Positions 37,933 through 39,399 of a stretch of DNA of 39,663 bases are shown in pieces. Source of the DNA: Chloroflexota bacterium (GTDB taxonomy: Bacteria; Chloroflexota; Dehalococcoidia; Lucifugimonadales; G022566795); contig JADFIF010000010.1 in NCBI GenBank assembly GCA_022566795.1, positions 1-39,663 on the forward strand, in the 5' to 3' direction. Below the pieces are notes generated by a model. It had not been told where the DNA came from. It did no database searches and saw only the letters and a program-made list of their open reading frames with translations. Position numbers and translations under genes: made by a program. The stretch's first letter is position 1; every line of letters begins with the position of its first letter.

Positions 37933-38592
37933 CTAGGTCGTGACGAGCTCGGGGGAGAGCGGGAGGCCTACTCCGATCATGCTGTTTCGAGTCACGAGCT
38001 CGGCAAGCTGCTCCTCGGCCATGCCCTCGGTGCCGGCGGGCCGCCCCGGTAGGACCAGGTATCGTATCTCGGCGGTGCTGTCGATGACGCGGACGCCGAT
38101 GTCGGATTCCAGCTCCAGACCGAACTCGCGCAGGACCGCCCGAGGCTCGATGACGACGCGAGAGCGGTAGGCAAGGCTCTTGTACCAGTCGGGCGGCGGT
38201 CCCAGCAGGGCTCCCGGATAGCACGAGCAAAGCGTGCAGACCACGACGTGGTGCAGCTCGTCGGTGTTTTCGAGGGCGACCAGTCCGGTGTCGGCGACGA
38301 AGTCGTAGCCCAGCTCGGCGATGGCCGTCAGCGCATTGTCCAGAAGGCGTTGCTTGAACGCGGGGTCGACCCACGCCCGCGCGACGACCCGCGCGCCATC
38401 GGACGGCGAGCGCGCCCGCGCCGACTCTACGGAGCGCTGGATGTCGTCGGGAGCTATTATGCCTTTCTCTACGAGCAGCTCCTGCATTGCCAGGCTCCGC
38501 TTCGCGCGGTAGCTTAGCTGGATGTCGGGCGTCCCGCCGGGATGGCCCTGGGACTCCTCACCGGCGCCATGGTCGTGCTGGTGTTCGCTCAT
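37933..38592 (-). CDS. Nitrile hydratase alpha-like subunit (cobalt type; thiocyanate hydrolase gamma-like)
   Basis: A 219-residue protein with the metal-claw motif VCTLCSCYP: Cys119, Cys122 and Cys124 with Ser123, where the Thr after the first Cys marks cobalt rather than iron enzymes. These residues bind Co(III), and in the family Cys122 and Cys124 are oxidised after translation. It catalyses hydration of a nitrile to an amide or hydrolysis of thiocyanate. Downstream, [27 protein letters not shown] matches the family. The usual CYPWP after the claw reads CYPGA. The N-terminus is His-rich (MSEHQHDHG). ATG 38592 has AGGAGG 5 bases upstream. The two halves of the beta subunit are encoded just upstream; a family A repeat is inserted between. 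Confidence 0.92.
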   Translation of the reverse strand: [219 protein letters not shown]

Positions 38593-38605
38593 CTCATCCT
38601 CCTAA

Positions 38606-38769
38606 AAGGGTGCTGAAAAACCCTTCGGGCGTCCTTCTGGCCCATTTCCAGTAGGGAAAGGGGAAACTGTATCTGAGGGACACCCCTTCGACGATGCTCA
38701 GGGCAGGCTCTCAGACTCCCGGCAATCCCGACGGGTCGGGACTGCACTCCCCATTTTTCATGATTCCCT
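38606..38769. repeat. Family A MITE-like repeat, copy 4, inside the nitrile hydratase-like operon
   Basis: In reverse orientation: left end AAGGGTGCTGAAAAACCC, right end CCCCATTTTTCATGATTCCC, with the internal palindrome CCCGACGGGTCGGGA and shared segments CTGAGGGACACCCC and CTCTCAGACTCCCGGC. It fills the space between the beta C-terminal-half gene (stop 38777) and the alpha-like gene, ending just before the alpha-like ribosome binding site (38598-38603). Confidence 0.82.
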
Positions 38770-38776
38770 TAAACGT

Positions 38777-39079
38777 TCATGCTGGCTCCAGCCAGTGCTC
38801 GAAGACATCGGCGCAAATCCTATCGTTGGCCGGTCCCCGGTAGCTCTCCCAGAGGTCGGCCTGATCGAACTCGACGCGGTACACGGTCACCCTGGGAAGT
38901 CCGGCCTGGCCGTAGGCGCGCGACTCCGGGTTCATGTAGGCGTCGTATACGACGTCGACCCTGCCCGTCTTGCCCTTTATGTACCAGGGAGTCCGATGGT
39001 GGCTTGCGGGATAGCGCTCGCTGACCCTCACGCGGTCGCCGGGACCAAATATCGCGCTATCTGAAGAGTCTGGGCTCAT
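38777..39079 (-). CDS. Nitrile hydratase beta C-terminal half (thiocyanate hydrolase alpha-like)
   Basis: A 100-residue SH3-like barrel matching the C-terminal domain of nitrile hydratase beta subunits: FGPGDRVRVSERYPASHHRT, then WYIKGKTGRVDVVYDAYMNPES, then TVYRVEFDQADLWESYRGP. The FxPGDRV, GHTR-like (SHHRT), KGKTG and LW motifs are all recognisable. Its ATG (39079) overlaps the end of the preceding gene by 4 bases (ATGA at 39076-39079), so the two halves are translationally coupled. In ordinary nitrile hydratases this domain is fused to the N-terminal half; separation is typical of thiocyanate hydrolase and of a few other three-subunit enzymes. Confidence 0.9.
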   Translation of the reverse strand: MSPDSSDSAIFGPGDRVRVSERYPASHHRTPWYIKGKTGRVDVVYDAYMNPESRAYGQAGLPRVTVYRVEFDQADLWESYRGPANDRICADVFEHWLEPA

Positions 39080-39399
39080 CCCCAGCGCTCCTCGACTTCC
39101 TTCATCTTCTCGTCGATCTCCGCGGGGGTGAGAACGCCCTTTTCGACGAGGAGGGTCTCGAAAGAGGCGGACCAGCGCTCGAAGTACGAGAGGGCCTCGT
39201 ACTCCGGCGCAGGTATGGACTCGATGCCGCGGCGCATCTCGTCGGTTACGACGATGCCCTTGCTCCTAAGAACGCGGGCCAACGCCTGTGTCCGATACTC
39301 CCAGTCGGCCCACTGGTGCTCGCCCTGGTCTACGGGCTCCTCGGTGGCCCAGCCTCCGCGGTCGTGCGCGGCGGGCGCTGGCTTCTCTCTCTCGCTCAT
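39076..39399 (-). CDS. Nitrile hydratase beta N-terminal half (thiocyanate hydrolase beta-like)
   Basis: A 107-residue helical protein matching the N-terminal part of nitrile hydratase beta or the related accessory proteins: HDRGGW near residue 12 (like HDLGG of beta subunits), EHQWADWEYRTQALARVLRSKG, then SYFERWSASFETLLVEKGVLTPAEID. It ends overlapping the start of the C-terminal-half gene. Metallochaperone (activator) proteins of nitrile hydratases share this fold, so an activator role cannot be excluded, but coupling to the C-terminal-half gene favours a structural subunit. ATG 39399 follows the cupin stop codon by 3 bases. Confidence 0.85.
   Translation of the reverse strand: MSEREKPAPAAHDRGGWATEEPVDQGEHQWADWEYRTQALARVLRSKGIVVTDEMRRGIESIPAPEYEALSYFERWSASFETLLVEKGVLTPAEIDEKMKEVEERWG

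Follow-up and report, generated by a model that had tools for sequence, protein, structure and literature searches.

The enzyme encoded near the end of the window, i.e., the 39,663-nucleotide stretch of contig JADFIF010000010.1 (Chloroflexota bacterium, class Dehalococcoidia) analysed here, is likely to be a three-subunit, activator-free nitrile hydratase (NHase) of the cobalt type. Putatively, it converts an organic nitrile to an amide, and the N-terminal half of its beta subunit probably also acts as a chaperone. It is NHase-like in all respects tested by sequence and model, and by four tests it is not a thiocyanate hydrolase (SCNase).

The locus lies on the minus strand and is transcribed in the order cupin, beta N-half, beta C-half, alpha. 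The NHase genes encode (i) an AnhD/ScnB-like beta N-terminal half of 107 aa (39076..39399; Pfam NHase_beta_N, 65.0 bits, E=8.1e-18), (ii) an AnhE/ScnA-like beta C-terminal half of 100 aa (38777..39079; Pfam NHase_beta_C, 78.1 bits, E=7.3e-22), and (iii) the alpha subunit of a Co-type NHase, 219 aa (37933..38592; Pfam NHase_alpha, 260.6 bits, E=7.5e-78). These three family matches are not due to chance. The two beta genes overlap by 4 bp (ATGA, 39076–39079), and a partial cupin gene (39403..39663; Pfam Cupin_2, 68.9 bits), the 5' end of which is lost at the contig edge, stops 3 bp ahead of the beta N-half start. The initial annotation, which had described a beta subunit encoded as two coupled genes (N-half, then C-half), a scnB-scnA-scnC-like gene order and a leading cupin gene, is borne out on each of these points. 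The coupling holds for the overlapping beta halves; it does not extend to alpha, which is set off from the beta C-half by a 184-bp spacer (38593..38776); despite this spacer, the alpha gene has its own AGGAGG site.

Dispersed repeat sequence makes up the spacer: ~50 pieces of the genome match it, several of them nearly full-length and 81–89% identical, and another copy lies inside the window, e.g. at 28565–28729. Since the spacer is such a repeat, and since relatives have a tighter operon, the repeat has probably entered what was once a more compact operon, and it could weaken co-expression of the beta C-half and alpha genes. A second contig, C189 (L115:1-704), carries the same locus end as window positions 38977–39663 with 93% identity, which suggests that the assembly mixes strains (haplotypes). 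A full cupin of 105 aa is present on C189 only (L115:447-761).

Equivalents of betaArg52, Tyr68 and Arg157 (numbered after what we take to be the P. thermophila beta sequence, used for residue numbering only) occur in every covering row of the alignment: split, fused and SCNase. In the window, they correspond to betaN Arg56, betaN Tyr72 and betaC Arg29. Given the homology between activators and the beta N-half, the N-half could itself be an activator, with the alpha subunit pairing with a full-length beta encoded elsewhere. This is extremely improbable: a beta-N profile gives the N-half 120 bits, an activator profile 32 bits (the latter built from 13 of 27 activator-scoring neighbours of fused-beta genes, see below), and the only further PF21006 or PF02211 site in the genome is the haplotype copy. 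C189 was considered as the site of a second, full-length beta gene, and was rejected; it carries only a haplotype of this locus, at 93% identity, beyond which no other beta gene was found in the window's genome. The outcome that the initial annotation had named as fatal to a true beta half—grouping with activators while a full-length beta gene exists elsewhere—was therefore not obtained.

At fused-beta loci, an adjoining ORF clearly scores as an activator in 27 of 34 cases, and P15K is present in six of seven SCNase loci; at split-beta loci outside SCNase, betaN itself is the only activator-scoring protein. A PF21006 search of the window's genome gave no match outside betaN, and the genomes of ten relatives with split systems gave a single match each (E<=0.01). 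An exception to the single-betaN pattern is genome G007, which has several betaN copies: three tandem beta-N domains, two of them in one ORF, lie at L161:1718-2613, with betaC and alpha on another contig. A search with a P15K alignment gave no match in the window's genome or in the split relatives; the same alignment scores 280–286 bits in three SCNase genomes. No separate activator gene was found, within the bounds set by a genome that is 85% complete, in which a diverged activator could be missed, and by PF21006, which picks up P15K-type activators weakly.

This apparent absence agrees with ScNHase (AnhD-AnhE-AnhA) of Streptomyces canus CGMCC 13662, for which no activator gene was found, and whose N-half AnhD serves in vitro both as a structural part and as a metal/swapping chaperone (PMC7329996). 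By its published description, ScNHase, which fits the window enzyme best alongside the toyocamycin nitrile hydratase, also shares with the window a split beta, the betaN-betaC-alpha order (separate beta N-half and C-half genes ahead of alpha) and a cobalt alpha. It differs in coming from another phylum, while the window has a cupin/TPP-enzyme neighbourhood; a Streptomyces plasmid enzyme related to ScNHase has Arg at the position of the window's Gly. The toyocamycin nitrile hydratase ToyJKL of Streptomyces rimosus, an (alpha-beta-gamma)2 complex of ~21, 10 and 11 kDa subunits (PMC8574189), is by description likewise a three-subunit enzyme, but differs in its role in nucleoside antibiotic biosynthesis; its alpha alone can self-mature, according to Nelp 2014 as cited in PMC7329996.

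Taken as a three-subunit NHase, the window enzyme would work as follows. The CTLCSC claw of alpha would, as in the family, bind low-spin Co(III) with two cysteines oxidised. The two half-beta proteins would jointly rebuild a beta subunit, supplying the two arginines and the tyrosine observed above, which would keep the oxidised claw in place and form part of the pocket lining, and the complex would hydrate an organic nitrile to the amide. Because no separate activator was found, the free beta N-half probably doubles as a cobalt and subunit-swapping chaperone, by analogy with AnhD of S. canus.

The Co-type claw reported in the initial annotation, CTLCSC with Thr, was read directly from the sequence at 38221..38238 (minus strand; alpha residues 119–124), and is unchanged in 21 of 21 aligned relatives. 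An odd ten-residue sequence had also been reported to follow it in place of the usual WP-type sequence; this does not stand, as that reading skipped YP. When the 20-residue post-claw block is set against that of solved NHases and relatives, the sole real change is Trp to Gly at one pocket position, and the remainder (LLGxPPxWYK) is kept. The changed residue, alpha Gly127 (38212..38214, minus strand), aligns to NHase alpha Trp116/117 and to SCNase gammaArg136; SCNase numbering follows PDB 2dd4_C, whose C128, C131, C133 and Arg136 fall in matching columns. According to PDB entry titles, the same residue has been swapped experimentally in both directions: SCNase carries R136W in 3vyg, and P. thermophila NHase carries alphaW116R in 3vyh. 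A literature search on SCNase Arg136 found nothing.

Comparison of 127 alpha sequences shows that the residue after CSCYP is W, F or Y in all 34 fused-beta loci and R in all seven SCNases. Among 77 split loci it is R in 64 and G, S or T in 11, the window included. With Gly127 in place of the pocket aromatic, the substrate range could be quite different. Within one family with one common gene cluster, the position holds both T and R; the residue is labile, and should not alone serve as a substrate label. Alpha was modelled with AlphaFold (mean pLDDT 87), and a Foldseek search with the model matches NHase alpha at E 8e-24. Classical Co-type NHases (NthAB plus activator) are like the window enzyme in claw, fold and catalytic beta residues, and differ in their fused beta, the aromatic after CSCYP and the frequent activator neighbour.

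The initial annotation had likened the enzyme to thiocyanate hydrolase, which, as in Thiobacillus, converts thiocyanate to carbonyl sulfide and ammonia. The two systems do share the split beta, the gene order, the CTLCSC claw and the equivalents of betaArg52, Tyr68 and Arg157; in addition, betaN residue 71 of the window is Arg, as in SCNase, and the fold search with the alpha model also matches SCNase gamma (E 6e-21). Identity as an SCNase is nevertheless very unlikely, having failed on four counts. Firstly, alpha scores 190.1 bits with TIGR03887, below the cutoff of 291.45, while seven real SCNases score 338–400 bits, far above it. Secondly, Gly127 stands where SCNase has gammaArg136. Thirdly, P15K, the SCNase activator, was not found in the window's genome. 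Fourthly, SCNase occupies a long branch in a clade separate from the window alpha. From the substrate options first listed, thiocyanate is disfavoured by these four tests, and an organic nitrile was rightly included.

In the tree of alpha sequences, built without ToyJ and AnhA/ScNHase, a strongly supported branch sets the fused-beta alphas apart; L112, a case of secondary splitting or of a frameshift, falls with them. SCNases fall among the proteobacterial split enzymes. The phylogeny that had been proposed as a check does not group the window alpha with ScnC; the window alpha belongs to a split-beta clade of Dehalococcoidia with G, S or T at the pocket position.

Within the same order, 36 of 98 genomes have an NHase alpha, and the loci fetched from this order are about half fused-beta and half split-beta. 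The window's gene set is found in ~15 genomes of the order, plus other phyla. In a cross-phylum scan of one genome per species (at least 80 loci, not a full census), split-beta loci among the matches listed come from Binatota, Rokubacteria, Myxococcota, Rubrobacter, Thermoflexus and many Proteobacteria, nearly all of them in betaN-betaC-alpha order. Split-beta genes are also carried on plasmids of Streptomyces, Rhizobium, Agrobacterium, Microvirga and Polymorphobacter, often alongside aquaporin and cobalt transporter genes; the Streptomyces homologue adjoins a Ni/Co transporter gene, and four of the five alphaproteobacterial plasmids read have a half-alpha-half order. Conserved neighbours of Rhodobacteraceae split loci gave no pointer to a nitrile pathway.

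Several individual loci depart from the common layout. In genome G039 (L160:984-2313), betaN and an XRE-type antitoxin-like domain are encoded in a single open frame, which is preceded by a RelE-like ORF and followed by the C-half; alpha is 1 Mb away. At L134:9152-10012, the alpha ORF apparently has a weak beta-N-like N-terminal domain, with betaC just upstream. In genome G093 (L126:9918-16264), betaN, betaC and alpha are spaced ~3 kb from one another and thus need not adjoin. In one family of the order (L120:3161-10373, L121, L130, L135 and L136), the split-beta genes lie just downstream of metK, in a conserved mtnA-mtnP-rhodanese-PfkB-ahcY-metK cluster.

The window's own neighbourhood is different. 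Upstream on C189 are the complete cupin, a D-2-hydroxyacid dehydrogenase, an RraA-like aldolase and a small protein, a set common to three relatives. The cupin takes the same place in L116–L118, and a TPP-dependent enzyme of the PRK08266 subfamily (36114..37733, minus strand; 605.8 bits, cutoff 571) follows alpha in the window, as it does in L117 and L118. A conserved cluster protein of ~106 aa (L118:6052-6369; L115:2838-3155) has no Pfam match. No amidase conserved next to the NHase genes was found in the window and relatives' loci. Two candidate partners were rejected: the cupin as a hydroxynitrile lyase (its best NCBIfam match, yet 34 bits against a cutoff of 140), and a downstream proline-iminopeptidase-family hydrolase as an amidase (the family fits, but it was not seen beside the TPP gene of L117, and the L118 sequence stops at that point). 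A reasonable reading of the cluster is a putative route from nitrile to amide, hydroxy acid, oxo acid and a TPP step. Because the cupin/RraA/D-2-hydroxyacid dehydrogenase/TPP cluster recurs in relatives, it weakly suggests a small hydroxy- or oxo-nitrile substrate. A bolder proposal, which we consider possible but doubtful, is that the window subclade forms a separate substrate class, in which the change from Trp/Arg to Gly/Ser/Thr opens the pocket, with the enzyme supplying a dedicated pathway of these cluster enzymes for a new natural nitrile.

Such gene contexts can also be read as signs of a non-nitrile job in sulfur/methionine metabolism or a hydroxy-acid pathway, e.g., one in which an intermediate resembling an isothiocyanate, isonitrile or cyanate is hydrated. 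The metK-linked cluster of the one family and the common cupin/RraA/dehydrogenase cluster of the window's relatives speak for this. However, every catalytic residue for nitrile hydration is kept, a characterized enzyme with this layout is a hydratase of organic nitriles, and gene context varies by subclade and so may not mark one substrate; we regard a non-nitrile job as unlikely.

With the window enzyme read as an NHase, three-subunit, activator-free Co-NHases are no longer limited to a few Streptomyces examples but make up a widespread group spanning Dehalococcoidia, Binatota, Rokubacteria, Myxococcota and Proteobacteria, in a layout formerly thought rare. The split-beta layout should accordingly not be taken as a sign of thiocyanate hydrolase. 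One pocket position (aromatic, Arg or Gly/Ser/Thr) tracks architecture, and its part in substrate choice is testable. Most worth following are the breadth of the distribution and the subclade with Gly, Ser or Thr in the pocket.
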